DNA from: Desulfosediminicola ganghwensis
GTDB lineage: Bacteria; Desulfobacterota; Desulfobulbia; Desulfobulbales; Desulfocapsaceae
Reading direction: 5' to 3'
Length of the DNA: 64,000 nucleotides
Assembly (NCBI RefSeq): GCF_005116675.2
Contig: NZ_CP050699.1
Coordinates: 2,565,001-2,629,000, forward strand
Part shown: positions 5,796 through 60,700 of the stretch, piece by piece
How the letters are laid out: each line of letters starts with the position of its first letter
Numbering within the stretch: the stretch's first letter is position 1
Translations under genes and position numbers: made by a program
The notes under the pieces: generated by a model
Databases searched by the model: none
Told to the model about the DNA's origin: nothing
What the model saw: the letters and a program-made list of their open reading frames with translations, nothing else

Positions 5796-6114
5796 GAGGT
5801 GTGTACAGGGTAACCTTTGGCCAACTTTTACATGCAATTACCTGTAATGCCGCAGGTAAGTTGAGAAAGTGTTGCAGGGGGGAGAATTTTCGAACTCTGG
5901 ATGAGGTTATTATTGGCCGAAGGTGGTTGGGTCTTGTTCGAGGGCTTGGATGCTTTGGCAGGATTTGAGTTCGAGTTCTTTGGTTTCCTGCAGGTGAAGC
6001 AGGTGAAGCAGGTGATAAGGTGTTGTTCGCCTGCTGTCATGACGGCTTCGAAGAGGTTGGCGATTATGCCTGGCCAGGTTCCTTCTAAGGCTTTCCAGCG
6101 GACGGTGTAGTCTG
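5796..6114. other. Decayed segment without a recognisable gene; 9-bp tandem repeat
   Basis: No protein family was recognised in any frame. A minus-strand open frame runs through here but reads as low-complexity and changes frame relative to any plausible coding pattern. Three tandem copies of GCAGGTGAA (the last ending T) occupy 5990-6016. This stretch separates the tRNA fragment from the IS30-end remnant and is best read as debris of an accessory region. Confidence 0.4.
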
Positions 6115-6141
6115 GAGGTGAATTCAAATTGCAAGTGCACC
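6115..6141. repeat. IS30-family end remnant (27-bp match to the IS30 end at 12092)
   Basis: The 27 bases here are identical to 12092-12118, where the same sequence forms the terminal end and last codons of an IS30-type transposase. It includes the core AATTCAAATTGCAAGTGCAC. No transposase lies beside this copy, so it is a solo end left by deletion or imprecise loss of an IS30 copy. It abuts the dehydrogenase pseudogene fragment. Confidence 0.65.
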
Positions 6142-6265
6142 CTGACTGACAAGAGGTGTTTGACTCGATTCCGTCCTGTTCCATTCACTCCCTGAAAAGC
6201 CGGCCTTGTGTAAATTCTCGACCATTGCCTTTCCCATAATGTCAATTCCTAGAAAGCCGTAGGAT
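6139..6265 (-). pseudogene. Duplicated, decayed 5' end of the dehydrogenase gene
   Basis: Bases 6139-6265 match 5420-5545, the start of the dehydrogenase gene, over almost their whole length with scattered substitutions and small gaps. One shared block is GTAAATTCTCGACCATTGC. The copy carries a small deletion where the intact gene has CATACATTCAC. It covers roughly codons 3-45, is disrupted, and has no downstream body. The rest was replaced on one side by the IS30-end remnant. Confidence 0.7.
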
Positions 6266-6762
6266 TTTATTTTATTCACCAATGAATTAAGGGGCGATTT
6301 TACATACGTTGGTTATGCGCGGTAGAGTTAATATTTGAAATAACTGATTAGAATATAAATAAAGTATTTAATAATGTATTTTCATGGTTGTTTGGTGTAT
6401 ATCGAAATGTTTTATATGATACTACATTGTGCCTTTTTAATCTTTTGTTGTTCTGGGGTAAAAATAATATTTTTTGCTAAAATAGGGAGTGAAATATCTG
6501 ATGAAATATAAGGTAAAATTTGTATTTCAGGTCTGATATTCCAGTGTTTCCCCATTGTCGATTGATATTTCAGTCTATCATTATGTGTGTTAGGTATTTG
6601 ATTTCACCTAACTTTTCACATAGTTAATATGTTGACAAATCAGTGTGTTAAGGTTTGATTCCTCCTTTGAGGAAGTGGCGGGATGTACAGTGCAATTTGA
6701 AATGGTTTTCATTGAATGATGCATATATTCATAGGCTGCTGAAAAATCTGGGGGGATTTTTG
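6266..6762. other. AT-rich non-coding stretch upstream of the RHS gene
   Basis: About 500 bases, noticeably AT-rich, with no convincing gene. It probably carries the promoter of the RHS gene; I could not assign a -35/-10 pair with confidence. The only firm element is the ribosome site GGGGGGA at about 6750-6756. Confidence 0.4.
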
Positions 6763-9700
6763 ATGAAGCGTTGGCTTGTAATTATTCTTGTGTGCATTGG
6801 TGTTGCTCTATCTTTTGTTTCTCTTTCTTATGCAGAAGAAGGTTCCGATGACCCAGGTGGCGGAGGTGAATGCCAAGGTGGTTCTCATGGTTGTGATGGA
6901 GGTGATGATGGTCCTTCACCACAGGAAGAGGCAGATTCCGAGGCGGCAAGCCACAACGCTGCAGCTAACGCGGCCCAAGATGCAGCAGAGAGTGCTCGCG
7001 CAGAGATGGATAGTGCCCGAAACGAGTTAGAAAGTGCAGCTCGTGCAACTAGTAGAAGCTATTCAGATGCAGCTCAGGCACGGGATTCCGTAAGTAGAAA
7101 CAACGATGATAGTGGAAATGCACTAGGAAACGCTAATAACAATGTTAACAGTGCCGAAGGATTAGAAGAACAACAAGCAGAGGCAGCGGCGGGAACCAAC
7201 GCAGCAGCGGAGAAAGATAACACTGCTACTCAGGGTCCCCAAGTAAATTGCCCTGTGGTTGTTGCAAGTGGTATAGAATGTTTTAGAACAATAGATTTTT
7301 CTTATAAAGCTTTAAACGAGCAAATTCTTGTTCAAAGAACCTATCGTAGTAACCTCAACGAAAAAGAATCTTCGTTTGGCCTTGGGTGGGCTTTTAATTA
7401 TGATACAAAGCTCGTGGTCGGCAGAAAACCATTTATCAAAGACAGAGAGATCCTTACTGCAAATCTGAATGAAGAGACGATAGAGCTGCAGGCCCTGGTT
7501 AACGAAAAACTCGAATCTAGTTCTCTTCTTCTTCAGTCCATAGAGGTGTCTGTTGCCGATGCTCATCTCCACGCATCAAAAGTAAAAGAGTTAGAAGCGA
7601 AGATTGCTGCTCTGGCACAAATAATTGAAGAGAAAAGTGCAATTGCTCAGGCTGCAGCTGATGCCGCAACAGCCGCCGCATCAAGAGGTACAAGTAAAGG
7701 CCGGGCCAGTGCGGCGAGTGCCAGAGCCATCGCAGCTGAGACTCAGCTTGAATCTGATTTGGCATTGGCTGATGCGGTGAGAGCTGCAGAGGCCGTTGAA
7801 ACAGCAGAACAAGAAGTTGCAGCTACGGAGCAGGCATTTCAGGAGAGTTCTGATCTTGTTGAGCAGATAACTCAAAAAAAGATTCTTGTAGACCATGCGG
7901 CTGCAAGAATTGCAGCCCATGCGGTAGAGGCTGAAGCAGAGGCTCGCCTTGAAGAAAAACTCTTTCCCAATGACCCTTACCCGACAGACCCTTCGGTCTA
8001 TTTCGGTAGAGGCTTTGTTAAGGTCATTGAGGCGGACAGTACTCCGGTCCTGTTTCAGGAGCAGGAAGAGGGCGTTTATCTACCTGTATCTGACAACAGC
8101 AGCTATACTTCGACTGTTTATCATAAGCCAAATGGTTATTCTCTTATTACCCAACATGGATACGAAACTTTTTACGCAAAGACCGGCACTGGGGTAACCG
8201 AGTTGGCATCAATGGTTGATACCAACGGTAACACCACCCATTTTGAACGTATAGGAGACAGCTTTACTATTACAGATCCTGTTGGTAGGAAAACTGTTGC
8301 TACATATAACCGCAATGACCATATTCAGCAGATTGTTGATCCGCAGGGTAACTTATACGCGTATGCCTATGAAAATGATCTGTTAACACGTTACATCGAT
8401 CCTCTGGGCTATGTATGGAAGTATGGCTATGATGAGAACAATCGTTTGATCTCACGCGCAGATCCGCAAGGAAATGTCTATCAATACGCATATGATGAAA
8501 ATGGCCGAGTAGTCCAGGAAATCGATAAGGCCGGGTATGTAATATCGTATGACTATGATCCGGACAATCAAGTAACCGTCGAAACAGACAGAAAAGGCAA
8601 TCAGCGGTATTTTTATTATAACGATGCTCACCGACTTGAGCGACTTGTCCAGCCAGATGGCGCAACGATCTTTTTTACTTATGATGAAAGGAACAATGTT
8701 TCCTCAAAAACTGATGAAAACGGCATAACTACCTACCTGACCTATAACGAGTTCAATGATGTAATTTCAGTGACAGATGGTTTGGGCGGTGTCACCAACA
8801 TTACTTATGAGCAGAAGTTTAATAAAGTAGCTTCCGTTACCGATCCGCTGGGTAGGACTCGTTATTTTGATTACGATATTCATGGTAATCTGACCACTAT
8901 CACGCATCCAGACGGGGCCACTCGCTCAATTGTTTATGACGCTCAGGGGCTACCAGTCAGTGTCATTGATGAAAACGGTAATCCAACCGAATTATTTTAT
9001 GATATGTATGGCCAGCTCAGTGATGTTAGAAATCCTGATGGAACGGCAAAATCATTGATGGCTGATATCTTGGGCCGCATTACATCGGCAACTGATGAAA
9101 ACGGTAATACCACTCAGTATCAGTACAATCCCGTAGGAAAGGTAGTGAGGGCTGTTGATCCGCTTGGAGCTGAAACCCTCATTGAATATGATTCGCGCAG
9201 GAAAATAATCAAGAGAACCAATGCCAAAGGGCAAAGCTATCTCTATTCGTATACTGCCCGAGGTAATCTTGCTCAGATCACGGACCCGATGGGGTATAGC
9301 GAATACCGCGAGTATGATGAGAGTGAAAAATTAAGCATGCTGACATATCCCAACGGTACTGGTGTTGCCTACGCATATGACAGCAGGGAAAATTTAGTTG
9401 CAGAAACCACTCTTCCTAGCAACAGGGAAACCCTCTATTTCTACGATGACAAGAAACAGAAAATCGCTGTTAATGATGCTAATGGCAATACCACATCCTA
9501 TGTCTATGATTCCCTAGGGCGTAAAGTCTCCACCAATGATGCGGAAGGCAATACAATAACCTCCGTCTACGATGCAGTCGGCAATCTGCTTGAACTGATA
9601 GATGCCAACGGTAACCCGATCAACTATGAATATGACAGTCGTGATAGGCTCGTTTATGAAACCGATGCCATCGGTAATGTTACCGCTTATCAGTATGATG

Positions 9701-11556
9701 GTGTTGGCAATGTTATCTCAAAGGTGAAACCTGACGGCAGCGCTATCAATAACAGTTACGATGCACGCAGTCGCCTTATGCAGGTGAGTTACCCGGATGG
9801 TACCACTAAAGAGTACGGTTACGATGGAGTTGGCAATATGACCTATATTGCCAACCAGGAGACCGAAGAAGTACGAGAGTATGATCCGCTTGGCCGTCTC
9901 CTGCTTACATCTGACGCATATAACGGCCAGATCGACTATGAGTACGACATTCTCGGTAATCGGGTTCGCATGGTAGACCCGGACAACGGTGTTATGCAGT
10001 ATAGGTATGATGTAAATAATCGTCTCACCAGTTTTATTGATCCCGAAGGCAAGAAAACAACCTATCAGTATGACTCCATGGGGCGTGTTGTTTCCAAGAC
10101 AATGCCGAATGGTGTCACTACCGAAAAGGTATATGACGATGAAAACCGTCTGGTGCGCATAGAATCATACAGCAGAAAAAATGGGGTAATATCGTCCTTT
10201 GCATACACGCATGATGCGGTAGGTAACAGAACATCAGTTCAGGAAGAGGATGCTGGTGTTACAACCTATGAGTATGACAATATTTACCAGTTGACCAAAG
10301 TCAATTATCCGCTGCGTGAAGGCATTGTAATTGCGGGTCCCAAAAATGCTGGTTCAGAAAAAGGTAAGGGCAAGAAAATCGGTCAAACTAGTGAAGAATA
10401 TCTTACTTTCGAAAGCTTTCTGTACGATCCGGCCGGTAATCGCCTGAGTATGACTAATGATGTTGAAACGATCAGCTATCAACATAATGCCGCAAACCAG
10501 ATGGTGCGGGCGGGTGAGACGCTGTTCAGTTATGACGCCAATGGAAATCGTATAAGTGAAACCACAGGAGAAGGAGCGACCTATTTCTCCTATACCTATG
10601 ACGATATGCTGGCACAGGTGGATAATCCTGATGGTGAATCAACAGCATATGGATATGATGCCTTGAGTCGTCGGATATACAAAGTCGATCAAGAAGGTGA
10701 TACCACGTCATACCTCTATGACGGGTTGGAGGTGTTGCAGGAGGTTTCCGGGCAAAACAGTCAGAAGATTACCGCATATTATCGAGCTAATGGCCAGATA
10801 ATCACCAGGCAGGAGTATAATGTTTCGCAGGGCTACAATGGTGCTTACCAGAATCGCCCTGAAGGGTTGCAGATATTTTATACCTATGATGCGCTGGGGA
10901 GTCTGGCATCAATTTCCAAGCATAACGGGCAACTGGAGAGTAGATATCGTTACAGTGTGTATGGTAGTTTGTTGCAGGGTGATATGTCTGATAATGTTTA
11001 TGGTTTTACAGGGAAACGGTTTGATGTTGAGAACGGGACATATCATTTTCACTTCAGGCAGTATGATCCGGTGAATGGGGTTTGGACCACGAAGGATCCC
11101 ATTGGGGTGTTTGGTGGGGTGAATTTGTATGGGTATTTGGGGAATGATCCGGTTAATTGGATTGATTGGTTGGGGTTGCATAGTTTTGAGGACCAGCCGC
11201 AAGGAGCTACAGCTATAACATCTTGTCACGCTTCGGAGAGAGGGGAAACTCCAAGGGCGACATTCGGTGTTTCGGGTACCATAGCTACTGCAACAACAAG
11301 TATAGATCAAACTTCTGGGATGACTGATAGTCATTCAACTTCTCATGCTGGATGGTCAGTTGATGTAACTATTGGAGAAAAGGGTACTACAGAGGCAGGC
11401 GTTGGTGCCAGGCACATTGGTGTTGGTGCTAATTTTGATAAAGAAGGGAACTTGGTAGGTGTGTCAGGACATGCGGGTTACTCTTGGCCCCCATCATTAG
11501 TTTACGGTTCTGTTTCATCTGAAGAAGAACCCTCTGCGAAGGAAGGGTGTGAATAG
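6763..11556 (+). CDS. RHS/YD-repeat protein, secreted, with variable C-terminal tip
   Basis: 1597 residues from ATG 6763, chosen because GGGGGGA lies 6 bases upstream and a signal peptide (about residues 1-24, ending SLSYA) starts here; an upstream TTG frame start lacks both. After a Gly/Asp/Ala-rich low-complexity stretch comes a DUF6531-like start (about 160-220). An Ala/Glu-rich coiled coil of about 170 residues (about 226-396) interrupts it, then several dozen YD repeats fill about 500-1390. The RHS core ends in the classic FRQYDPVNGVWTTKDPIG and NLYGYLGNDPVNW motifs near 1430-1470. The last 120 or so residues are a Gly/Ser/Thr-rich tip matching no toxin family I recognise. RHS proteins form a shell around a released C-terminal effector. 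No PAAR or VgrG gene is nearby, so export through Sec and surface display is inferred. Confidence 0.9.
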   Translation: MKRWLVIILVCIGVALSFVSLSYAEEGSDDPGGGGECQGGSHGCDGGDDGPSPQEEADSEAASHNAAANAAQDAAESARAEMDSARNELESAARATSRSYSDAAQARDSVSRNNDDSGNALGNANNNVNSAEGLEEQQAEAAAGTNAAAEKDNTATQGPQVNCPVVVASGIECFRTIDFSYKALNEQILVQRTYRSNLNEKESSFGLGWAFNYDTKLVVGRKPFIKDREILTANLNEETIELQALVNEKLESSSLLLQSIEVSVADAHLHASKVKELEAKIAALAQIIEEKSAIAQAAADAATAAASRGTSKGRASAASARAIAAETQLESDLALADAVRAAEAVETAEQEVAATEQAFQESSDLVEQITQKKILVDHAAARIAAHAVEAEAEARLEEKLFPNDPYPTDPSVYFGRGFVKVIEADSTPVLFQEQEEGVYLPVSDNSSYTSTVYHKPNGYSLITQHGYETFYAKTGTGVTELASMVDTNGNTTHFERIGDSFTITDPVGRKTVATYNRNDHIQQIVDPQGNLYAYAYENDLLTRYIDPLGYVWKYGYDENNRLISRADPQGNVYQYAYDENGRVVQEIDKAGYVISYDYDPDNQVTVETDRKGNQRYFYYNDAHRLERLVQPDGATIFFTYDERNNVSSKTDENGITTYLTYNEFNDVISVTDGLGGVTNITYEQKFNKVASVTDPLGRTRYFDYDIHGNLTTITHPDGATRSIVYDAQGLPVSVIDENGNPTELFYDMYGQLSDVRNPDGTAKSLMADILGRITSATDENGNTTQYQYNPVGKVVRAVDPLGAETLIEYDSRRKIIKRTNAKGQSYLYSYTARGNLAQITDPMGYSEYREYDESEKLSMLTYPNGTGVAYAYDSRENLVAETTLPSNRETLYFYDDKKQKIAVNDANGNTTSYVYDSLGRKVSTNDAEGNTITSVYDAVGNLLELIDANGNPINYEYDSRDRLVYETDAIGNVTAYQYDGVGNVISKVKPDGSAINNSYDARSRLMQVSYPDGTTKEYGYDGVGNMTYIANQETEEVREYDPLGRLLLTSDAYNGQIDYEYDILGNRVRMVDPDNGVMQYRYDVNNRLTSFIDPEGKKTTYQYDSMGRVVSKTMPNGVTTEKVYDDENRLVRIESYSRKNGVISSFAYTHDAVGNRTSVQEEDAGVTTYEYDNIYQLTKVNYPLREGIVIAGPKNAGSEKGKGKKIGQTSEEYLTFESFLYDPAGNRLSMTNDVETISYQHNAANQMVRAGETLFSYDANGNRISETTGEGATYFSYTYDDMLAQVDNPDGESTAYGYDALSRRIYKVDQEGDTTSYLYDGLEVLQEVSGQNSQKITAYYRANGQIITRQEYNVSQGYNGAYQNRPEGLQIFYTYDALGSLASISKHNGQLESRYRYSVYGSLLQGDMSDNVYGFTGKRFDVENGTYHFHFRQYDPVNGVWTTKDPIGVFGGVNLYGYLGNDPVNWIDWLGLHSFEDQPQGATAITSCHASERGETPRATFGVSGTIATATTSIDQTSGMTDSHSTSHAGWSVDVTIGEKGTTEAGVGARHIGVGANFDKEGNLVGVSGHAGYSWPPSLVYGSVSSEEEPSAKEGCE

Positions 11557-11698
11557 ATATTATTGAGAAATTCCGAGATTACCCGACATTGGCCTAAAGA
11601 ATACATGTCCCAAATTAAGCCAGATAGCTATTCCAAAAGCCCTACAATGCCGGGTAGTCGGAATTTATCTTAAAAATTGATAAAACAATATATAGGTT

Positions 11699-49922: not shown

Positions 49923-50783
49923 ATGTTTGCCGATCTACTGCAATATACCTTTTCAGGGCTGACAAGTGGCGCAATTTATGCGCTGATAGCTCTGGGTTTC
50001 TGTGTGGTCAATAATACCATGAAGATCGTCAATTTCGTACAGGTGGATTTTGTGACCCTGGGTGGAATGTTGATGTTCTCATGTCTCTTTGGTGCCGGAT
50101 TGCCTATGATTCCAGGCATTTTTCTTGCTGTGGCCGGAGTGGCATTAGTGGCGATGATTGTGGAACGCTTCGGGCTTCGGCCTGCGAGATCGAACCATCA
50201 TCTGGTACTGATCTTTCTCACCGTGGGGCTTTCCATAATATTGCGGGGAATCATCAAGTTGATCTGGGGCACGAACCGGATGGCTCTGCCGCCTTTGACA
50301 CCTGATGTGCCTATCGCTTTTATGGGGGCGAGCCTTTTGCCCCAGGCGCTCTGGGTGATGGTGCTAACCATTGGCGCGATCAGTCTGCTCACCTGGTTTT
50401 TCTATCGAACATCGCTCGGATTGTCAATGCGGGCTGTTGCTTCCAACCCCACAGCGGCCGCTGTAGTTGGTATCCCGGCCGGTCGAATCCGTCTGACCAG
50501 TTACGCCATTGCCGGTGCTTTGGGTGGTCTGGCGGGTGTACTTGTCACACCGATTACCACCCTCAATTACGATGTTGGGGTGCTGCTGGGGTTAAAAGGT
50601 TTTGCTGCGGCCATCCTGGGCGGTTTCGGCTCATTTCCCGGGGCAATTGTGGGAGGTCTCTGTCTTGGTCTGCTAGAGTCCCTTTCAGCCGGCTATCTTT
50701 CCAGCGCCTATAAGGATGTGGTGGCTTTTGTGGTGTTGTTGCTGGTGCTTTTTGTGCGGCCTAAGGGATTGTTTGGAGAGTGA
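49923..50783 (+). CDS. livH: Branched-chain/aromatic amino acid ABC permease, LivH type
   Basis: 286 residues with eight or so membrane helices. LivH features: GLTSGAIYALIALGFCVVNN at the start, the conserved GLRPARSNHHLVLIF, and the ATPase-contact loop AVASNPTAAAVVGIPAGRI. It is the first gene of the operon, preceded by AGGAG with long spacing. It forms the channel with LivM. Because the operon encodes aromatic 2-oxo acid metabolism, the imported amino acids are more likely aromatic than aliphatic. Confidence 0.93.
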   Translation: MFADLLQYTFSGLTSGAIYALIALGFCVVNNTMKIVNFVQVDFVTLGGMLMFSCLFGAGLPMIPGIFLAVAGVALVAMIVERFGLRPARSNHHLVLIFLTVGLSIILRGIIKLIWGTNRMALPPLTPDVPIAFMGASLLPQALWVMVLTIGAISLLTWFFYRTSLGLSMRAVASNPTAAAVVGIPAGRIRLTSYAIAGALGGLAGVLVTPITTLNYDVGVLLGLKGFAAAILGGFGSFPGAIVGGLCLGLLESLSAGYLSSAYKDVVAFVVLLLVLFVRPKGLFGE

Positions 50784-50929: not shown

Positions 50930-52750
50930 ATGACAACTGAATTATTGATGGGTAATGATGCCATTGGCCGCGGGCTGATAGAGGCTGGTTGCCAGGTTGC
51001 GGCGGCGTACCCCGGAACACCTTCTACTGAGATTTTACAGTCGGTGATCAATAGGCGGGATGAAGCTGTCGATCCACTGCATGTGGAGTGGTCGGTAAAT
51101 GAGAAGATCGCTTTTGAAGTGGCGCTGGCGGCAAGTTACACCGGCAAGCGTTCTGCAGCGGTAATGAAGCAGGTTGGCCTCAATGTTGCGGCCGACCCCT
51201 TTATGCGCACCGCCTATCTCGGTGTGAAAGGCGGCATGCTCACCATTGTGGCTGATGACCCTGGCCCCCATAGCTCCCAGAACGAGCAGGATACCAGATT
51301 ATTCTGTCTGCAGGGCAGGGTGCCGGTGCTTGACCCGTCGAGCCCGGCCGAGGCCAAGGCGATGGTTGAACCAGCTTTTGCCTTATCTGAAAAATATGAG
51401 ATGAATGTGGTTCTCAGGCCAACGACGAGGGTCTGCCATTCTCGCCAAAGTGTTGCGCTTACAACTCCTTTGGGGCCTGATCGAAAATCGGAATTCGTAC
51501 CGGATACCGGCCGGTTTTGTGCCACACCAGCGTTTTTGCCGGGGCTTCATAAAGCACTGAATGCAAAACTGGAGCAGATAGCCAAAGAGCCTGACTGGCA
51601 GCCGAAAATGGTAGAGGGGGACGGCAGTAATAAAGGTTTGGCCCTGGTAGCTTCCGGTATCGCCTATGCGAACCTGGTCGATCTGCTGGCAGAACTCGAA
51701 CTGACTGGTACTGTCGATCTGTATCAGGTGTTGATGCCATACCCGCTGAACCCGGATTTCATTGATACGCTGCAAAACTCGTATACAAAAGTCCTGGTAC
51801 TGGAAGAGACCTACCCGGTGATTGAGATGCAACTTGCTCACCCGGGGGCTGCAGGCAAACTGAGTGGTGCGGTCCCGAAGGAAGGGGAGTTGACTCCTGA
51901 TGTCCTGTACACCGCACTGGCAGATTTTCTCGGCTTGGAGAGGCAGCAAAACGAAGCTGTACAGGCACGTGGTCAGCGTCCGTCACTCTGCCCGGGGTGC
52001 CCGCATCGAGCCGCGTTTTACTCTATCAAGAAAACCTTCCCCGATGGCATCTTTCCCTCCGATATCGGCTGTTACACCCTCGGCATGAATCTCGAGGCGG
52101 TACATACCGTCCATTGCATGGGGGCCTGTATCAGCCAGGGGGCCGGGTTTTATCAGGCGTACCGGCAGGATGGTGGAGCAACACCGACTGTGGTGGTGAC
52201 CATTGGCGACTCAACCTTCTTCCATGCAGGAATCCCGGCGCTTATCAATGCTGTAGTACAGGATGCGCGCATTATCGTGGTGATTCTCGATAATGCCACC
52301 ACAGCCATGACCGGTGGTCAGCCGGTACCGCATATGGGGATTGCTGCAGGTGGCAGGAAGACCAAGGCAATTGCCATCATGCCGTTAGTGAAGGCCGCCG
52401 GGGTTGAATTCATTGAAAGTTGCGACCCATATCACCAGGCACGTTTCGAAGAACTGCTGCGTAAGGCGGATGAACATACTCGTCATGAAAATGGTGGAGT
52501 GGCGGTGCTGATTGCAAAGCATGGCTGCCTGATGGACCCGGCGGTACGAAAAGCGCAGGAGGCTGCACCGGTGCAAATCACCGAAGATTGCCTGGGGTGT
52601 GGTCAGTGCGTTGAGATCTTTGAGTGTCCAGCACTTTCCATGGACAAGGAAAATGAGACAGCCCGGGTGGATGGGGATCGCTGTCATGGTTGCGGCACCT
52701 GTATCGCAGTTTGCCCGGCCCAGGCCATTGTAGAGGGGGGAATGATATGA
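50930..52750 (+). CDS. iorA: Indolepyruvate:ferredoxin oxidoreductase alpha subunit
   Basis: 606 residues, full length. The pyrimidine-binding domain is N-terminal (GNDAIGRGLIEAGCQVAAAY and PGTPSTEI), the thiamine diphosphate domain has GDSTFFHAGIPALINAV and DNATTAMTGGQP, and two ferredoxin-type [4Fe-4S] sites close the protein (CLGCGQCVEIFECP and CHGCGTCIAVCPAQA). It oxidatively decarboxylates aryl pyruvates (from Trp, Phe, Tyr) to aryl-acetyl-CoA, reducing ferredoxin. The stop overlaps the iorB start (ATGA). Cytosolic complex with IorB. Confidence 0.96.
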   Translation: MTTELLMGNDAIGRGLIEAGCQVAAAYPGTPSTEILQSVINRRDEAVDPLHVEWSVNEKIAFEVALAASYTGKRSAAVMKQVGLNVAADPFMRTAYLGVKGGMLTIVADDPGPHSSQNEQDTRLFCLQGRVPVLDPSSPAEAKAMVEPAFALSEKYEMNVVLRPTTRVCHSRQSVALTTPLGPDRKSEFVPDTGRFCATPAFLPGLHKALNAKLEQIAKEPDWQPKMVEGDGSNKGLALVASGIAYANLVDLLAELELTGTVDLYQVLMPYPLNPDFIDTLQNSYTKVLVLEETYPVIEMQLAHPGAAGKLSGAVPKEGELTPDVLYTALADFLGLERQQNEAVQARGQRPSLCPGCPHRAAFYSIKKTFPDGIFPSDIGCYTLGMNLEAVHTVHCMGACISQGAGFYQAYRQDGGATPTVVVTIGDSTFFHAGIPALINAVVQDARIIVVILDNATTAMTGGQPVPHMGIAAGGRKTKAIAIMPLVKAAGVEFIESCDPYHQARFEELLRKADEHTRHENGGVAVLIAKHGCLMDPAVRKAQEAAPVQITEDCLGCGQCVEIFECPALSMDKENETARVDGDRCHGCGTCIAVCPAQAIVEGGMI

Positions 52751-53247
52751 AGCAGCAGATAGTGGTAAGCGGAATCGGTGGCCAGGGCGTGCTCTTTCTT
52801 ACCCGGGTGATTGCCCAGGTTGCCGTGGACCAGGGAATACCTGTATTGACCTCAGAGAGCCACGGTATGGCCCAGCGTGGCGGTACCGTGCTCTCGACCC
52901 TGAAGATCGGTAATTTCGCAGCTCCCTTGATCCGCACAGGGCAGGCCGATGTGGCGCTGTTTCTCTGGGATGCCAATTTACCGGTGCATCAGCCGTTGAT
53001 GAAAGAGGGAGGTGCACTTTTCATAAATTCCAATACTGAAGGGGTTGGCGAGCGTATCGACGCTTCGGCTATAGCCAGGGAAATGGGTAAGGCGGTACTC
53101 TCAAACCTGGTGCTGCTGGGCAGGGCAGTCAACAGTAACGCCCTGTTCTGTACGGAGGGGCAGTGTCTTGAGGCTATCGAAAAACTTGCCCCACCAAAGT
53201 TTGTAGAGCAGAACCTGCAGGCATTTCAGGCCGGGCTGAGAAACTGA
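52747..53247 (+). CDS. iorB: Indolepyruvate:ferredoxin oxidoreductase beta subunit
   Basis: 166 residues from ATG 52747, overlapping iorA by four bases; the frame from 52690 inside iorA is not used. The gamma-type fold shows VVSGIGGQGVLFLTRVIA, ESHGMAQRGGTVLSTLKIG and NLVLLGRAV. It completes the IOR heterodimer with IorA. Length is a little under the usual 180-200 residues but no conserved block is missing. Followed two bases later by livM. Confidence 0.95.
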   Translation: MKQQIVVSGIGGQGVLFLTRVIAQVAVDQGIPVLTSESHGMAQRGGTVLSTLKIGNFAAPLIRTGQADVALFLWDANLPVHQPLMKEGGALFINSNTEGVGERIDASAIAREMGKAVLSNLVLLGRAVNSNALFCTEGQCLEAIEKLAPPKFVEQNLQAFQAGLRN

Positions 53248-53249
53248 GT

Positions 53250-54338
53250 ATGTCGGCTAGAGAAAAACTATTTTACTCTGTCTATCAGCACCGAACCGGG
53301 CTGACTGTCTTGCTGGTATCTGCGGTATTACTGGTTTACCCGCTTTTTGAGGACAATCCCTATACACTGGGTATTTCCAACCTGATCGCCATTAACGTCA
53401 TCGTGGTGTTGGGGCTCAACCTGTTTATTGGCTATGCGGGCCAGATTTCGCTGGGGCATGCCGCGTTTTTCGGGCTTGGTGCCTACGGATCTGCCATCGC
53501 CACCACCACTTTTGGCATATCACCCTGGCCTGCCATGTTGCTGGTGGCAACGGTTGTTGGCCTGATGGCACTGGTGCTGGGTATTCCTATATTGCGGCTC
53601 TCAGGTCATTATCTGGCCATGGCCACGCTCGGCTTTAATTTTACGGTGCACGCGGTTTTTCTGGAGTGGGATGAGCTCACCGGCGGGCCCAGCGGTTTCT
53701 ACGGCATCCCTTATCTTGGTTTTGGTGATTTTCGTTTTGATGATGAGGTGCGGCTTCATTATTTGCTCTGGGGCTGCGCCATACTCTGTCTGCTGCTCTG
53801 CCTGAATCTGGTTCGAAGCGGTGTTGGCCGTGGCTTTGCAGCATTGGCTGAGGATGAGACCGCCGCCGCGGCGCTTGGAGTCGATACCCGTAGCGCCAAG
53901 GTGAAAGTGTTTGTGCTGTCAGCGGTGATGGCCTCGTTTGCAGGTTCACTCTTTGCCCACTGTTACTCGTTTATCAGCCCGGACTCGTTTGGCATTTTCA
54001 CCTCTACAGATATGGTCATCATGGTGGTTGTCGGCGGTATGGGCTCTATATGGGGGTCTCTCTTGGGAGCCGGGTTGATCACCATCCTTCCGGAGTTCAT
54101 GGACATATTCGAAACCTATAAGGATTTCGTGCACGGTGCGATTCTGGTGCTGGTGCTGATGTTTCTGCCCCAGGGGCTGGTAAGCGGTATCGCTCATGAG
54201 TTCAGGGTGAGAATGACTTTGCGAAAACATGCAAAAGACCAGGCAGCCGGGAAGAAGGTGGAACACAACACTCAATTGAAAAACAGTGATATGTCCCGGA
54301 GCATTTATAAGGAGGGGCAGAAAAATGTTGCAGCTTGA
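53250..54338 (+). CDS. livM: Branched-chain/aromatic amino acid ABC permease, LivM type
   Basis: 362 residues with about nine membrane helices. LivM motifs: LNLFIGYAGQISLGHAAFFG, GHYLAMATLGFNFTVHAVF, GGPSGFYGI and the EAA loop AALAEDETAAAALGVDTRSAKVK. The C terminus is an extended polar tail (after SGIAHEFRVR) that overlaps the livG start by 14 bases, so translation is coupled. Pairs with LivH. Confidence 0.95.
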   Translation: MSAREKLFYSVYQHRTGLTVLLVSAVLLVYPLFEDNPYTLGISNLIAINVIVVLGLNLFIGYAGQISLGHAAFFGLGAYGSAIATTTFGISPWPAMLLVATVVGLMALVLGIPILRLSGHYLAMATLGFNFTVHAVFLEWDELTGGPSGFYGIPYLGFGDFRFDDEVRLHYLLWGCAILCLLLCLNLVRSGVGRGFAALAEDETAAAALGVDTRSAKVKVFVLSAVMASFAGSLFAHCYSFISPDSFGIFTSTDMVIMVVVGGMGSIWGSLLGAGLITILPEFMDIFETYKDFVHGAILVLVLMFLPQGLVSGIAHEFRVRMTLRKHAKDQAAGKKVEHNTQLKNSDMSRSIYKEGQKNVAA

Positions 54339-55089
54339 TGGTCTCTCAAAAAACTTTGGCGGCCTGCCTGCCCTGTCTCAAGTCTCGTTTACGGTGCCTG
54401 AGGCAAAATTAACAGCGCTGATCGGTCCCAACGGAGCAGGGAAATCGACCCTGATACATTGCATAACAGGGGTGTTGCCCTCATCCGGTGGCTCTATTTT
54501 TTTCAAAGACCAGGAGATTACAGGATTATCGGCTCACCAGATCAGTCAACTGGGGATAAGCCGCACCTTCCAGAATCTGAGGCTCTTTCCCAGGCTGGAT
54601 GTACTGAACAATGTGCTGACGGGTCTGACCAACCAGGGCGGAACCTCAATGCTGATGGCCATGCTGCGACTGCCGTATCTCAGGCATCGTGAGCGACAGT
54701 TGAAACTCAAGGCGCTGGAAGCGCTGGATCGCTTCGAGCTCGGCGAAAAGGCGAGCTGGCCTGCTGAGGTGTTGGCCTATGGAGATAAAAAGCGGGTGGA
54801 ATTGGCCCGGGCAATAGTCGGTAAACCCGATTTGTTACTTCTCGATGAACCGGTGGCTGGGCTGAACAGCCAGGAAACGGCCGCAGTGGGTGAACAGCTG
54901 AAAATGCTTCGACGCAAAGGCCACACCATCCTGCTGGTGGAGCACGATATGGAACTGGTGATGGATATCGCCGATCAGGTGGTGGTGCTGGACAGCGGTC
55001 GCTGCATTGCAATCGGTACCCCTGAAGAGGTGCGGAAAAATCCACTGGTGCTGGAAGCGTACCTGGGGAAAATGGAGGCCACTGCATAA
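54325..55089 (+). CDS. livG: Branched-chain/aromatic amino acid ABC ATPase, LivG type
   Basis: 254 residues from ATG 54325, which has GGAGG upstream; the frame from 54286 lies in livM. Walker A is GPNGAGKST, the Q-loop is in GISRTFQNLRLFPRLDVLNN, the signature region reads VLAYGDKKRVELAR (LAYG replaces LSGG, normal for LivG), Walker B is LLLLDEPVAGLN and the switch His is in VEHDMELV. The stop overlaps the next start (TAATGA). Confidence 0.95.
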   Translation: MLQLDGLSKNFGGLPALSQVSFTVPEAKLTALIGPNGAGKSTLIHCITGVLPSSGGSIFFKDQEITGLSAHQISQLGISRTFQNLRLFPRLDVLNNVLTGLTNQGGTSMLMAMLRLPYLRHRERQLKLKALEALDRFELGEKASWPAEVLAYGDKKRVELARAIVGKPDLLLLDEPVAGLNSQETAAVGEQLKMLRRKGHTILLVEHDMELVMDIADQVVVLDSGRCIAIGTPEEVRKNPLVLEAYLGKMEATA

Positions 55090-57185
55090 TGACGCCGATG
55101 TTGAAAATAGAAAATCTCACAGCTCACTATGGTGCAGCCCAGGCACTTTTCGGGGTTGATCTCGATGTTGCAGCGGGCGAGACCGTCTCGCTGGTTGGTG
55201 CCAATGGTGCCGGTAAGTCAACGCTGCTTAAATGTCTGCTCGGCCTGGAGAAGCCCACCGGTGGCCGGATACTGCTGGATGGTGAGGATATCACCAGAAC
55301 CGGCCCTGCCAGGATGGTACGACTCGGTGTCAGCCTTTCTCCTGAAGGTCGCGAGGTCTTTGCCGAGCTTTCAGTGCTCGAGAACCTTCGGCTCGGAGCG
55401 GTTCCTCTAAAGCTCTCCCGCAGGGAAGAAGAGCGACGGCTGGCAGGGGTGTTTGATCGGTTTGCCAAGCTTTACGAGCGAAGGGAACAGAGCGCAGGCA
55501 CACTGTCCGGCGGTGAGCAGCAGATGCTCGCCATGGGCCGAGCGTTGATGGCGAAACCGCGGTTGTTGTTGCTGGATGAGCCAAGCCTGGGATTGGCACC
55601 GCTTATCGTCGATGACATTTTCGCCATAATCCGCCAACTCGCACGTGCAGGTACCACCATTCTGCTGGTGGAGCAGAATGCAGCACGGGCACTGTCGTCT
55701 TCTGACAAGGCCTACCTGCTGGCCAACGGAAAAGTAGTTGAGCAGGGAGAAAGCGCCGCGCTGCTCAATGATCCCGCTCTACGCTCTGCATTCTTAGGAG
55801 CGGCAAGTGATGAAAAGCCTGCAGCCAGCCGTCTTGGGGCTGCGGGTCTGACTAATATACGTTTGGAGAAACCCGCAATGCATACCAGAAATTTTATGCC
55901 TGACTTTGCCGGCAGGGAGGAACTCGAGGCCCATCAGCTGAAAGGGTTGAAGTGGACCGTTTCCCACGCCTACGAGGGTTCGGCCCATTATCGAAAAGCA
56001 TTTGAAGAGGCCGGGGTGACGCCGGCCGATATTGAAAGCCTTGCCGACCTGCAGAAACTCCCCTTTACCACGGCCGACGATCTGCGTGATGGCTACCCGT
56101 TTCCGCTCCGTTCGGTGCCGTTCGAGCAGCTGGTACGGGTTCATGCCAGTTCCGGCACCACCGGTAAACGCAAGGTGCTTTGTTATACGCAAAAAGATCT
56201 CGATGACTGGATCTACTTTTTTGCCCGCTGCTATCAGATGGCGGGCGTGACGCCTCTGGACAGGGTGCAGATTGCTGTTGGTTATGGTGTCTGGACCGCT
56301 GGTATGGGTTTTCAGTTGGGGGCAGAAAAAATAGGTGCTTTGGCAGTTCCAATCGGGCCTGGCAATATCGATATGCAGATTCAGTTTCTGCTCGATTTCC
56401 AGTCGACTGTATTTTGTTCGACGGCATCCATGGCTCTGCTCATGGCCGAAGAGATCCATAAACGGGGTATTGCCGACAAGATCGCGGTGAATAGGATTAT
56501 TTACGGTTCAGAGCGCTCCAGCCGCTCCATGCGACAGAAGATCTCTGACCTTTTTGGGGGTGCAGAGCTGTTTGATATTACGGGGTTAACCGAGTTGTAT
56601 GGGCCTGGTACCGGGATAGAGTGCTCCGATCACGACTGCATTCACTACTGGGGTGACTATTATCTGCTGGAAATTCTTGATCCGCAGACACTGCAACCAG
56701 TGGTTGACGGTGAATGGGGTGAGATGGTCATTACCACCCTCTGCAAGGAGGGATCACCTCTCATTCGCTATCGAACCAGAGATATCACCAGAAAGATACC
56801 GGGGGCATGTACCTGCGGTTCTGTCCTGCCACGTCATTCACGTATCAGGGGGCGGTCCGACGATACCATCAAGTTTCGAGGGGTGAATATTTACCCCTCC
56901 GGCATCGACACTATCCTGTCGGCGGTGCCCGGATTGGGTTCGGAGTACCAGATCCATCTGCGACGGGACGACTCGGGCCGTGATCACATGAATCTGGTGG
57001 TAGAGCGGGCTGAAGGGGTAGGGAATATACGTGTTCATGACCTCATTCAGGAAGTGGTCCATCAGGTTAAAAAGCAGTTGCTGGTTTCGGTAAAGGTAGA
57101 GGTAACGGAATATGGTGGTTTGCCGCGCTCGGAGCGGAAGAGTCAGCGCGTGTTCGACAATAGAATACAGGATGAAATCGTCTGA
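55089..57185 (+). CDS. Fusion of LivF-type ABC ATPase with phenylacetate-CoA ligase-like enzyme
   Basis: 698 residues in one frame. Residues 1-235 are a complete LivF ATPase: Walker A GANGAGKST, signature LSGGEQQ, Walker B LLLLDEPSLGLAP, switch His position read in LLVEQNAARAL (Gln/Asn, normal for LivF). A short linker (about 236-262) leads to a PaaK-type ligase: adenylate loop HASSGTTGKRKV, ITGLTELYGPGTGIEC, YRTRDITR and IRGRSDDTIKFRGVNIYPSG. Both halves look intact. An internal ATG at 55878 (residue 264) has GGAG 9 bases upstream, so a separate ligase could also be made. PaaK-type enzymes activate aryl acetates to CoA thioesters with ATP, matching or reversing the IorAB product. The fusion ties uptake ATPase and CoA ligase together. 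Confidence 0.9.
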   Translation: MTPMLKIENLTAHYGAAQALFGVDLDVAAGETVSLVGANGAGKSTLLKCLLGLEKPTGGRILLDGEDITRTGPARMVRLGVSLSPEGREVFAELSVLENLRLGAVPLKLSRREEERRLAGVFDRFAKLYERREQSAGTLSGGEQQMLAMGRALMAKPRLLLLDEPSLGLAPLIVDDIFAIIRQLARAGTTILLVEQNAARALSSSDKAYLLANGKVVEQGESAALLNDPALRSAFLGAASDEKPAASRLGAAGLTNIRLEKPAMHTRNFMPDFAGREELEAHQLKGLKWTVSHAYEGSAHYRKAFEEAGVTPADIESLADLQKLPFTTADDLRDGYPFPLRSVPFEQLVRVHASSGTTGKRKVLCYTQKDLDDWIYFFARCYQMAGVTPLDRVQIAVGYGVWTAGMGFQLGAEKIGALAVPIGPGNIDMQIQFLLDFQSTVFCSTASMALLMAEEIHKRGIADKIAVNRIIYGSERSSRSMRQKISDLFGGAELFDITGLTELYGPGTGIECSDHDCIHYWGDYYLLEILDPQTLQPVVDGEWGEMVITTLCKEGSPLIRYRTRDITRKIPGACTCGSVLPRHSRIRGRSDDTIKFRGVNIYPSGIDTILSAVPGLGSEYQIHLRRDDSGRDHMNLVVERAEGVGNIRVHDLIQEVVHQVKKQLLVSVKVEVTEYGGLPRSERKSQRVFDNRIQDEIV

Positions 57186-57215: not shown

Positions 57216-58367
57216 ATGAAACGATTACTGGCAGCATTGACCATGATACCGTTGCTGGCCCCCGCGGCTTTTGCCACGGAGACCATCAAGCTCGGTGCGT
57301 TTTTCGATCTTTCCGGCCGGGCGGCTTTTATCGGAACGCCGACGAAGCTGGTCGCCGAGATGGTGGTGGAGAAAATAAACGGAGAAGGCGGTATTAACGG
57401 CAAAAAGCTGGAGCTGATCATTGCCGATACCGAGGCTAACCCGGCTAAAACTGCCTCCATTGCCAAGAAATTCATCCACAAAGAGAATGTGGTTGCCATT
57501 ATCGGTCCAACCCTGACCGATACAGGTATGAATGTAAAAAAGGTTGTGGATAAGGGCCAGACCCCGATCTTTATGACCGTTGGCGGTGATCCGGTGATTA
57601 TGGGTGGTAAGTTCGGCCCATATAAGTACGTTTTTAAGTCACCACAGCGTTCAAGTATCGCCGTAGGACGACTCTTTAATTATTTGCAGGAAAAAGGGCT
57701 GAGCAAAATCGCGCTACTTTCAGCCGCAGATGGTTTTGGTAAAGATGGTGCCCGCTGGATGGATAAACTGGCTGCAGAATATGGAATCGAGATCGTTGCC
57801 CGCGAATCGTTCGGTACCCGGGACACTGACATGACCGCCCAGTTGACCAAGGTGAAGAATGCTCAACCACAAGCCATTGTTGCCTGGACAATCGGCCCGG
57901 CAGGCTCCATTATTGCCAAAAACAAGGCACAGTTAGGTATTGAACTTCCACTTTTTCAGTGTCATGGTCTGCCTGATCCCAAGTATATCGAGCTTGCCGG
58001 CAGCGCCAGTGAAGGAGACCGGATGCCTGCCACCAAGCTGATGGTGGTGGACGAACTGCCGGATAGTGACCCGCAGAAAGCCATTATTCAGGAATTTGTA
58101 ACTCTTTATAAAGAAAAAGGGTACGATACACAGTTCCCGATCAACACGCACTCCGGTTACGCCTGGGACGCTATTATGATGGTGGCAAACGCGATTGAAA
58201 AGGTGGGTACCGATCGAGAGGCGATTCGGGCTGAGATTGAAGGGACGAAAAACTATATTGGTATCTCAGGTATCTATAATATTACCGAAGAAGACCATAA
58301 CGGACTGGGAGTGGACTCCATGGTCATGGTGCAGGTGAAAAATGGTCAGTTTGTAATGGCCAGATAA
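57216..58367 (+). CDS. Branched-chain/aromatic amino acid ABC substrate-binding protein
   Basis: 383 residues from ATG 57216, preceded by GAGGGG; a start at 57195 would add seven residues over the ribosome site. The signal peptide is MKRLLAALTMIPLLAPAAFA. Peripla_BP_6 fold: IKLGAFFDLSGRAAFIGTP, INGEGGINGKKLELI, and VVAIIGPTLTDTGMNVKK, which contain the ligand loops. Ligand is probably an aromatic or branched-chain amino acid, or an aryl acid given the ligase. Last gene of the operon, followed by a terminator 24 bases on. Confidence 0.94.
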   Translation: MKRLLAALTMIPLLAPAAFATETIKLGAFFDLSGRAAFIGTPTKLVAEMVVEKINGEGGINGKKLELIIADTEANPAKTASIAKKFIHKENVVAIIGPTLTDTGMNVKKVVDKGQTPIFMTVGGDPVIMGGKFGPYKYVFKSPQRSSIAVGRLFNYLQEKGLSKIALLSAADGFGKDGARWMDKLAAEYGIEIVARESFGTRDTDMTAQLTKVKNAQPQAIVAWTIGPAGSIIAKNKAQLGIELPLFQCHGLPDPKYIELAGSASEGDRMPATKLMVVDELPDSDPQKAIIQEFVTLYKEKGYDTQFPINTHSGYAWDAIMMVANAIEKVGTDREAIRAEIEGTKNYIGISGIYNITEEDHNGLGVDSMVMVQVKNGQFVMAR

Positions 58368-58443: not shown

Positions 58444-60324
58444 TTAATGAGGTGCTTCTGCACTTTGCATGATTTCATCGTACGCACGTGCCAGCTCACG
58501 TTTCAGCTCATGGACCGGCCTACCGTAGCCTTCAATCTCAAGGTAACCTTTCTGCACAGTTTCCCCGCAGGTGAAAGAGACGCAGGATTGGATCTCGGCT
58601 TCCGTACATCTCCGTATCGAATCCTGACCAGAGAAAACGATCCAGTGGGCAAAGCCCTGTGGAATGAGATTTACAATGCTCTGCCAGGTAAGATCCCGGG
58701 GCAGAATGACCTGGGCGCGAAGGTAAATCTGGTCCTCCTCGACGCGTTCAGTAATAGTCATTTCACGGGGGAAGACCGGCTCAGGGAAATTGTTTTGAGG
58801 GGCTGCTGCTGCCAATACTTTACCCTCATCGGCAAAAAATGGTGCCAGCCTGAATGTCGGCGATGGAGCGGTAACGAGAGATACACCAACATAAACGAGT
58901 CCACTGACAGCCATGGCGACTATAACGCCATGTCCCATCAGGATTGGATGCACAGCCTCAAGTGCGGGTGGCGCTCCGGGCAGGGTGTTGAACAGATCAT
59001 AGGCTACAAAAGCGCACTGACTTAAAAAGCCGGTGCACATGGAAGCCCCTGCTCCTGCTGCGGTTCCTCCTTTCCAGTACATACCTCCCATCAACGCGAA
59101 AAAATATGAGGCACTGGCTATGAAGGTGGCGATATGGATGGCGTCGATAATCGAGTCAATCAGAAAAGAGCCAATGGTGGCGCAGGCGATGATAAGGAGC
59201 ACACTCAGCCTGTTGACCAGCATCATTTCACTCATCGATGCTGCGGGATGGAAGAGTCGTTGATATATATCACGGGCCACGCATGAGGCACCAGACGCAG
59301 CAAAAGTGTCGGCGCAGGACATGGCAGCAGCAGCAAGCGCTACAGCGCAGAGGGCCACGATAATATCTGAATAGTTCTGACTGACGATGAAATGCAAAAG
59401 AGCAGGCTCTGCCTGGGCCATTCCCATGGGAAAGCCGGCCGCGGCAATATCAGGATAGATGTTTCTCAGGCCCAGAGCTATGAAGGCACAGCCTCCGAAA
59501 ACAAGAGTGACCAATAAAGAGCCGAAGAGCATGCCGTTGCGTGCTGACCGGGAGTCTCTTGCTGCCCATACTTTCTGCCAGGGGTCTTGTTCAGTTATCC
59601 AGCCGGGGATGATGGCAACGCTAAAGATGAGTACCATAGGCAACCCGATTGAGAGTGGGTTCCACCAGTCCGCACCTGTGGTTGTAACCATGGTTGATAT
59701 CGCCTGGCTGCTGGTTTCAGCGCCATTGCCCATGACCAGGACCGAGAAAATCAGCACGAAGAATGACAGGCAGAGAAACTGCACAGTATCGGAGGCAATG
59801 ACCGCAGACAGGCCACCCAGAGTAACATAGACCGCGACGGATAATCCTACTATCAATGCAGCCTGCAGGTTGGATATGCCATAAAAGATTTGCAGCACCA
59901 TGGCAAAGCCCTTGATGTCGGCCACGGCAAAGAGGATCATTACCACGATGATGATCATAGCCACAGGAGTGCGGATAAATGAACCATAGCGGATTTCCAG
60001 CAGTTCGGGCTGGGTCATGGCTGGGATTGATCTGATCTTTTTGACCAGAAGAGCGATAATCAGGAGTGCGATAATATTTGGGGCCACAAATCCCCAGACA
60101 GAGCCCATGCCAAGAAGGATAAAAAAGCCGATAACCGCCAGCATGGCTCCGGCGGTCAGCCAGGATGCGGCTGCGGAAAAACCAATGGAGAACGTTCCGG
60201 CGCTCTTGCCGGCCAATAGAAAATCCCTCACGGTTTTTTGCCTCCGGTTAAAGTAGTAACCCGTGGCGATGAGGAAAAAAATGTAGGCTCCAAAAAGAAC
60301 CAGAAATATCGAATAGCTGCTCAT
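58444..60324 (-). CDS. Sodium:solute symporter (SSS family) with C-terminal soluble extension
   Basis: 626 residues from ATG 60324, chosen because GGGAGG is just upstream and a longer frame (to 60504) would run through the riboswitch and its terminator. About 13 membrane helices. The SSS core shows FLLAGKSAGTFSIGFSAAASW, GGLSAVIASDTVQFLC and PGWITEQDPWQKVWAARDSR. After the last helix (near 510) there is a soluble C-terminal domain of about 115 residues (TERVEEDQIYLRAQVIL onwards) with a paired Cys motif (SCVSFTCGE). It is not part of typical SSS proteins. Sodium-driven uptake of an organic acid or amino acid is likely; its control by cobalamin suggests a B12-linked substrate. Confidence 0.9.
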   Translation of the reverse strand: MSSYSIFLVLFGAYIFFLIATGYYFNRRQKTVRDFLLAGKSAGTFSIGFSAAASWLTAGAMLAVIGFFILLGMGSVWGFVAPNIIALLIIALLVKKIRSIPAMTQPELLEIRYGSFIRTPVAMIIIVVMILFAVADIKGFAMVLQIFYGISNLQAALIVGLSVAVYVTLGGLSAVIASDTVQFLCLSFFVLIFSVLVMGNGAETSSQAISTMVTTTGADWWNPLSIGLPMVLIFSVAIIPGWITEQDPWQKVWAARDSRSARNGMLFGSLLVTLVFGGCAFIALGLRNIYPDIAAAGFPMGMAQAEPALLHFIVSQNYSDIIVALCAVALAAAAMSCADTFAASGASCVARDIYQRLFHPAASMSEMMLVNRLSVLLIIACATIGSFLIDSIIDAIHIATFIASASYFFALMGGMYWKGGTAAGAGASMCTGFLSQCAFVAYDLFNTLPGAPPALEAVHPILMGHGVIVAMAVSGLVYVGVSLVTAPSPTFRLAPFFADEGKVLAAAAPQNNFPEPVFPREMTITERVEEDQIYLRAQVILPRDLTWQSIVNLIPQGFAHWIVFSGQDSIRRCTEAEIQSCVSFTCGETVQKGYLEIEGYGRPVHELKRELARAYDEIMQSAEAPH

Positions 60325-60396
60325 ACTCCCTCCCGGCAACCGAGGGCGACGCTCAATACTGTTATCAGACGCCGCGATGCTGTTGCCAATCTGGTG

Positions 60397-60450
60397 CCGG
60401 AGGGAGATAGAAAAATCCCCGAACCGACAAGTGTCAGCCCGGGGATTTAC
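60397..60450 (-). terminator. Riboswitch-controlled intrinsic terminator
   Basis: Read leftward, AAATCCCCG and CGGGGATTTTT form a stem followed by T-rich bases, and the flanks GGAGAGAT/ATCTCCCTCC extend the pairing. It lies between the aptamer and the symporter start, 73 bases before the ATG, as the expression platform. Confidence 0.8.
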
Positions 60451-60454
60451 CATC

Positions 60455-60700
60455 TCTCCGAGAACAATAGGCTTGGCTGGCAGATATTCTGACTCGTGGA
60501 TCACCCTACTTACCGCACCTTCCCGTACCGTTTACCCGATTTCAACCTGAAATTACAGCACAGTGGTATATGCGGTGTTCGTCCTCACTCACAGCGGCGG
60601 GTCCGTTCCGGAATTACACCGGATTCCCTGCGGGAACTGACCAATGGTTGATCAGCTACCCGGATCATTTAAAGATCACCAGTAAGCATTTGTAGTGTTT
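60455..60700 (-). promoter_or_regulatory. Cobalamin (AdoCbl) riboswitch
   Basis: On the minus strand the conserved core reads GGGAATCCGGTGTAATTCCGG split as GGGAATCC, GGTGTAA and TTCCGGAAC, then GGACCCGCCGCTGT, and after about 95 bases the B12 box AGTCAGAATATCTGCC (complement of 60479-60495). These are the invariant blocks of cobalamin riboswitches in correct order and spacing. It would sense a cobalamin and set the terminator state for the symporter gene. The 5' limit is approximate. Confidence 0.92.

Follow-up and report, generated by a model that had tools for sequence, protein, structure and literature searches.

A window of 64,000 nucleotides from Desulfosediminicola ganghwensis (contig NZ_CP050699.1, positions 2,565,001 to 2,629,000), whose genome is a single contig of 5.65 Mb, contains an operon in the order livH-iorA-iorB-livM-livG-livF::paaK-livJ (Table 1; all positions are those of the window). 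The sixth of these seven genes joins in one open reading frame of 698 codons a LivF-like ATPase of an ABC importer and a PaaK-like AMP-forming coenzyme A (CoA) ligase. This frame had been proposed in an initial annotation made from the DNA letters, and it was borne out; it is open from 55089 to 57185 and both halves are complete. The stop codon of livG and the start of the fusion share bases in the sequence TAATG at 55087-55091, and the fusion is encoded together with LivG, LivH, LivM and a binding protein, the setting by which a LivF is identified here.

Table 1. Genes of the liv-fusion operon and elements of the fusion gene in the window
Feature	Position	Strand	Basis or remark
livH-like permease	49923..50783	+	Pfam BPD_transp_2; NCBIfam LivH 131.8 bits, cut-off 379
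iorA-like 2-oxoacid:ferredoxin oxidoreductase alpha	50930..52750	+	TIGR03336 614 bits, cut-off 650.9 (not reached)
iorB-like subunit	52747..53247	+	Pfam POR; best NCBIfam NF004916 187.3 bits, cut-off 227
livM-like permease	53250..54338	+	Pfam BPD_transp_2; NCBIfam LivM 189.7 bits, cut-off 366
livG-like ATPase	54325..55089	+	Start set at ATG 54325; Pfam ABC_tran, BCA_ABC_TP_C; NCBIfam LivG 255 bits, cut-off 362
livF::paaK fusion gene	55089..57185	+	Single open frame, 698 codons; start overlaps livG stop
LivF-like ATPase part, residues 1-240	55089..55808	+	Pfam ABC_tran 22-166
Conserved junction, residues 247-262, SRLGAAGLTNIRLEKP	55827..55874	+	Entropy, pN/pS, restriction to fusion genes
GGAG, possible Shine-Dalgarno of internal start	55865..55868	+	Nine bases before ATG 55878
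PaaK-like AMP-forming CoA ligase part, also candidate free product from ATG 55878	55878..57185	+	Pfam, PDB ligases
livJ-like periplasmic binding protein	57216..58367	+	Pfam Peripla_BP_6

On the fusion protein, Pfam detects ABC_tran at residues 22-166 (4e-31), AMP-binding at 342-549 and AMP-binding_C_2 at 598-692. Residues 4-239 align with the solved chain 1ji0 (240 residues; its 6-240) and residues 273-692 with the solved chain 4r1l (436 residues); therefore, the stretch inserted between the two complete halves comprises approximately residues 240-263, close to the linker of about 27 residues first estimated. The ATPase half contains the Walker A, signature and Walker B motifs of ABC ATPases, and its residues K43, S140, E164 and Q196 are identical in the 28 distinct fusion genes found in this work. 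Likewise, the ligase motif residues 356, 357, 360, 502, 565, 597 and 680 are kept in 28 of 28 genes, and K684, presumably the catalytic lysine of the C-terminal domain, is present in 27 of them and is also a lysine in the three solved ligases aligned. Given that the ligase domains are of the AMP-forming PaaK type, the ADP-forming chemistry offered as an option in the initial annotation is unsupported. Against the NCBIfam equivalog models, the LivF half reached 259.5 bits (NF008626, cut-off 441) and the ligase half 400.2 bits (TIGR02155, cut-off 646.3); since both scores are below the cut-offs, the halves are named LivF-like and PaaK-like. As the alpha subunit of the oxidoreductase (IOR) is also below its nearest cut-off, the amino acid substrate first assigned to the importer is doubtful. 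The operon has all five subunit types of the HAAT/Liv importers (LivFGHMJ), including a complete LivF half, and differs from them in the CoA ligase carried at the C-terminus of LivF and in the scores of LivF, LivG, LivH and LivM, all under the equivalog cut-offs. The alignment with PaaK (PDB 4r1l, 2y4o, 2y27) spans the whole ligase half; unlike PaaK, this ligase is fused to an ATPase and scores under TIGR02155.

The fusion is not limited to the window genome; it is found in some anaerobic sediment bacteria far beyond it, spread over eight families, and its unbroken homologues are 66-84% identical to the window fusion. A first search of 58 related genomes gave 17 matches at E <= 1e-110. Five of these were unbroken fusions, the window's own included; eleven were adjacent livF and paaK genes, 41-45% identical, that share a frame interrupted by one to four stops; the remaining one was a ligase fragment at a contig end. 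Within the order (a set consisting of the same 257 genomes as that of the class), 13 genomes match at E <= 1e-214, and in all 13 the frame is unbroken, so that the homologues in close relatives are not all split by a conserved stop. In the phylum sample, 196 of 395 genomes match at E <= 1e-120; among the matches listed there are 16 unbroken fusions, one of which (G369) lacks its final residues because the contig ends there, and the others are mostly the ligase part alone. In an additional fusion of this sample (G288) the ligase is cut by the end of the contig. Three fusions were recognized among the best 80 named loci (Desulforhopalus sp. IMCC35007, a Desulfuromonadales metagenome-assembled genome and a Deltaproteobacteria metagenome-assembled genome) in a scan that relied on two ABC motifs and is no census. 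The search for such architectures in relatives, proposed with the initial annotation, was thus positive across the order and the phylum sample. Searches aimed at the fusion among open-licence articles found no paper on it, from which its absence from print does not follow.

The peptide that joins the two halves is nearly invariant. Twenty-nine fusion loci (28 distinct genes) were aligned, leaving out L055, L056 (taken as a duplicate of L030) and the fragments L024 and G288. In this alignment the mean entropy of the junction, residues 247-262, is 0.196 bits; LivF averages 0.81 bits, PaaK 0.585 and residues 263-268 1.93. The junction ranks 14th of 673 sixteen-residue windows by conservation, which rules out a chance joining, and its degree of conservation is similar to that of the ABC signature; the alignment that had been suggested as a check on the fusion therefore revealed strong conservation. 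The motif is also carried by L055, outside the alignment. The ratio of nonsynonymous to synonymous variation (pN/pS) is 0.109 in the junction, as against 0.331 for LivF and 0.226 for PaaK, at comparable pS. A query of 49 residues centred on this region of the protein matched 17 of 395 genomes, exactly the carriers of the fusion, and in each of them at the fusion gene. The junction is a constrained peptide, under purifying selection at the protein level and confined to fusions within the genomes searched.

Two other origins for this conservation were considered and rejected. The first, that the junction is the tail of an ordinary LivF, disagrees with a scan of 53 loci in which, among the matches listed, the motif was present in 20 fusion loci and, outside the fusions, in one chance off-frame match (L024). 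The second is an RNA-level cause for the whole junction; synonymous variation at residues 247-258 is near expectation except at 247 and 256 (0.64 and 0.44 relative to the expected value), and the synonymous-constraint windows that start at 253, 255 or 256 rank 45 to 361 of 670-676, which is nothing exceptional. Most likely the junction docks the ligase or signals the state of the ATPase to it, and would be no passive spacer. The earlier suggestion that the fusion tethers the ligase to the inner face of the importer gains support from a junction that is conserved and selected, and from a fusion that is retained where its gene has moved off the operon.

Another aspect of the fusion gene is the possible internal start. 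The ATG at 55878 with GGAG nine bases upstream, noted in the initial annotation, is present and corresponds to codon 264. In the 29 loci this codon is ATG in 24, TTG in three and neither in two, one of which has an ATG one codon earlier; the rest of this stretch varies freely. In 24 of the 28 distinct genes a start codon is preceded by a Shine-Dalgarno match of at least four bases, a length reached at 75 of the 466 remaining internal ATGs in these genes. In three others the start codon is accompanied by a three-base match, and the fusion of G337 (L039) has neither start codon nor match. Codons 259-261 favour the Shine-Dalgarno spelling (27/28, 22/24 and 24/27, with 17.3, 13.2 and 12.6 expected), in counts that treat related, non-independent genes. 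The frequency of the start with its match in 24 of 28 genes makes a second product, the free ligase, plausible, and the two-product idea of the initial annotation has gained support in this respect. Against it, synonymous constraint in the wider window is unremarkable and the genes are related; moreover, split relatives start their ligase at about the same place, so that ATG 264 may simply be the ancestral ligase start.

In a tree of LivF sequences, a branch supported at 100/100 separates the 29 fusion rows from the rest. The PaaK tree nests the separate ligases of G215, G347 and G306 in the fused group, and a single clade of fused ligases is compatible with the data (approximately unbiased test, p-AU 0.448). 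The simplest reading of the trees would be one origin, possibly by loss of a stop between adjacent genes. Fission of a fusion as the source of the three nested separate ligases is neither shown nor rejected.

Flanking DNA was compared at 35 loci, 29 with fusions and six with a separate ligase. The complete order livH-iorA-iorB-livM-livG-fusion-livJ occurs in 13 of the 29 fusion loci (L159-L165, L167, L168, L171-L173 and L055) and in the window; at L166, L169, L170 and L174-L176 a contig end cuts the neighbourhood short. In L178, L182 and L184 approximately 2 kb lie between livG and the fusion, in L179 and L191 the two genes are 4.4-5.3 kb apart, and in L177, L180, L181 and L183 livG was not found within 2.5 to 8 kb upstream. 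In G337 (L185) the order is livH-livM-livG-fusion-livJ and iorAB is not adjacent. For seven genomes with the best livG located away from the fusion, the region around this livG was examined; six show no livF for at least 2.1 kb after it, and in the seventh (L206) the contig stops 154 bases past the gene. As no livF follows livG, the fused ATPase may be the sole partner of the lone livG. The inserts between livG and the fusion were located at 6264-8236 in L178, 9966-11967 in L182 and 6990-9082 in L184, and those of L178 and L182 contain frames that by eye resemble an A/G-specific adenine glycosylase and a DsrE-like protein. At L187 (G128), one frame on the minus strand (9326-11149) matches both LivM (39%) and LivG (40%), an apparent permease-ATPase fusion, and is followed by a PaaK-like gene.

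The mechanism that fits best, on gene context and conservation, from which we infer the substrate, the direction, the physical coupling, the role of the junction and the use of the internal start, is a HAAT-type importer for arylacetate whose ATPase carries a trapping CoA ligase, coupled through the junction; we consider this as having about an even chance of being correct. The fusion would be the LivF-side ATPase of a LivFGHMJ importer with an AMP-forming arylacetate-CoA ligase at its C-terminus. The binding protein and LivH/LivM would import an aromatic acid, with indole-3-acetate or another arylacetate as the leading candidate; the ligase, near the cytoplasmic exit, would adenylate the acid and join it to CoA, so that the acid is trapped. 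The ferredoxin oxidoreductase of the operon would then reductively carboxylate the aryl-acetyl-CoA to an arylpyruvate for amino acid synthesis, and the internal start probably adds some free ligase. The joining of a motor subunit and an activating enzyme by a short, nearly invariant peptide suggests a physical coupling of uptake to chemical activation. A more demanding form of this mechanism, which we regard as tentative and rather doubtful, is that the sixteen-residue junction links the transport cycle to CoA activation, so that the arylacid would be handed from the exit to the ligase and leave only as its CoA ester, in a vectorial acylation by one polypeptide powered by an ABC importer. The fusion naturally holds importer and activating enzyme inseparably together, so that the question of their mechanical coupling can be addressed in one protein, and its short junction is conserved like a catalytic motif; the operon is also a candidate high-affinity uptake system for arylacetate, possibly the auxin indoleacetate, in anaerobic sediment bacteria.

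Some parts of this arrangement have counterparts in other systems. Transport by Comatose is coupled with synthetases that are separate proteins, whereas the window fusion is a single protein. The likeness to this peroxisomal transporter, as it is described in an excerpt of PMC6642094, is in principle only, ABC transport being tied to CoA thioester chemistry, and no homology is claimed. Co-encoded oxidoreductase and ligase are also found in the iorAB-paaK clusters of anaerobes and in the IOR and ligase of Bacteroides (excerpt of PMC13285125); the window version adds an importer and tethers the ligase to its ATPase. For the IOR and AMP-forming arylacetate-CoA ligase of Bacteroides, the same excerpt argues for the biosynthetic direction and notes fermentative IOR elsewhere.

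The clearest clue to the substrate comes from G337. According to Pfam, the genes upstream of its fusion operon include a CoA-transferase III, an acyl-CoA dehydrogenase, an electron transfer flavoprotein, a B12-binding domain and a protein of the methylmalonyl-CoA-mutase type, as well as hydantoinase A, hydantoinase B, a PaaK-like ligase, a 2Fe-2S protein and a molybdopterin-binding subunit. This indoleacetate-degradation-like set lies directly upstream of the liv-fusion operon (L221 / L185, G337:C38:8000-31961). It resembles the anaerobic indoleacetate (iaa) pathway of Aromatoleum, which, in the portion of PMC8360864 available, comprises uptake with the binding protein IaaM, the ligase IaaB, the transferase IaaL, the mutase IaaGH and the dehydrogenase IaaF; lactamases of the hydantoinase family have been predicted for 2-oxoindoleacetyl-CoA (excerpt of PMC5214803). 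The likeness is one of gene types beside the G337 operon, and such genes were not seen beside the window operon. In G337 the CoA ester would feed an indoleacetate-degradation-like pathway instead of the oxidoreductase. Separate ligases akin to the fused one were found at 12 loci (L041, L042, L044-L053). Six of them were scanned (L045, L046, L049, L050, L051 and L053) and each has genes for a Mo-hydroxylase, a hydantoinase or a CoA-transferase III in its neighbourhood, a count that gives no rate since these loci were picked for looking informative; in the short flanks of L041, L042 and L044 no such genes were recognized by eye. At L051, L052 and L053 the separate ligase adjoins a TRAP-type DctM permease (by Pfam in L051, by eye in L052 and L053), so that this ligase subfamily seems to go with more than one type of carboxylate importer.

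Several observations weigh against an arylacetate importer with a coupled ligase. The distribution of the fusion is patchy, and two of three congeners (G002 and G003) are without it. Both halves score under their equivalog cut-offs, as given above; most of the genomes with a rearranged operon are fragmented assemblies, and the lone livG may have its partner among other LivF paralogues. The iaa-like setting occurs in a single fusion genome, and the window genome yields one hydantoinase B, distant from the fusion. In G337 itself iorAB is absent beside the fusion, Thr replaces K684 in the fused ligase, and another PaaK-like ligase is encoded separately close by; from the last two features, the fused domain of G337 may be non-catalytic, in which case the genome with the clearest substrate clue carries an inactive fused ligase and the separate one does the chemistry.

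Among the alternatives, a reversal of the direction is rather unlikely, in which aromatic amino acids or related compounds would be imported, the oxidoreductase would oxidise the arylpyruvate and so yield aryl-acetyl-CoA, and the ligase would run backwards to give arylacetate and ATP from AMP and pyrophosphate. It agrees with the amino acid transporter family to which the importer belongs and, in the excerpt of PMC13285125, with the fermentative IOR of Pyrococcus and the IOR reported in the conversion of phenylalanine to phenylacetate in Bacteroides thetaiotaomicron; however, according to the same excerpt AMP-forming ligases typically favour CoA ester synthesis, and the fusion operon of G337 lacks iorAB. 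It is unlikely, too, that the ligase domain serves chiefly to sense the acid or its CoA ester and, as a regulatory partner of the ATPase, to gate transport, with turnover left to other ligases. A junction as conserved as catalytic motifs, the K684T change of G337 with its nearby PaaK-like ligase, and two more PaaK-like ligases in the window genome would suit such a role, but 27 of the 28 genes retain K684, and all 28 retain the remaining ligase motif residues examined. Neutral loss of a stop codon, the joining being tolerated and functionless, was the other option of the initial annotation. In relatives livF and paaK are often adjacent, in 11 of 58 genomes sharing a frame in which one to four stops separate them. 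Stop loss stands as a possible route of origin; as a neutral accident it is improbable, given the pN/pS of the junction (0.109 versus 0.331 and 0.226 in the domains) and the keeping of the fusion in eight families and in rearranged operons. Finally, a sequencing or assembly error that hides a stop or frameshift, for which we found no point in favour, is practically ruled out by the same unbroken architecture and junction in the 29 aligned loci and L055, the three named records being among the unbroken homologues.

Two further observations concern the surroundings of the operon and its counterpart in the same genome. A frame of 686 codons of the sodium:solute symporter family lies on the minus strand at 58444-60504 and converges on livJ; its start is uncertain and its C-terminal portion is outside the Pfam match. 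Elsewhere in the window genome there is a separate iorAB-paaK-paaK cluster (L212, G000:C1:2869000-2888000, locus positions 6044-11634), in which iorAB is followed by the two PaaK-like ligases; its IorA is 35% identical to that of the operon, and the small protein encoded between the two ligases is ACT-like by eye.

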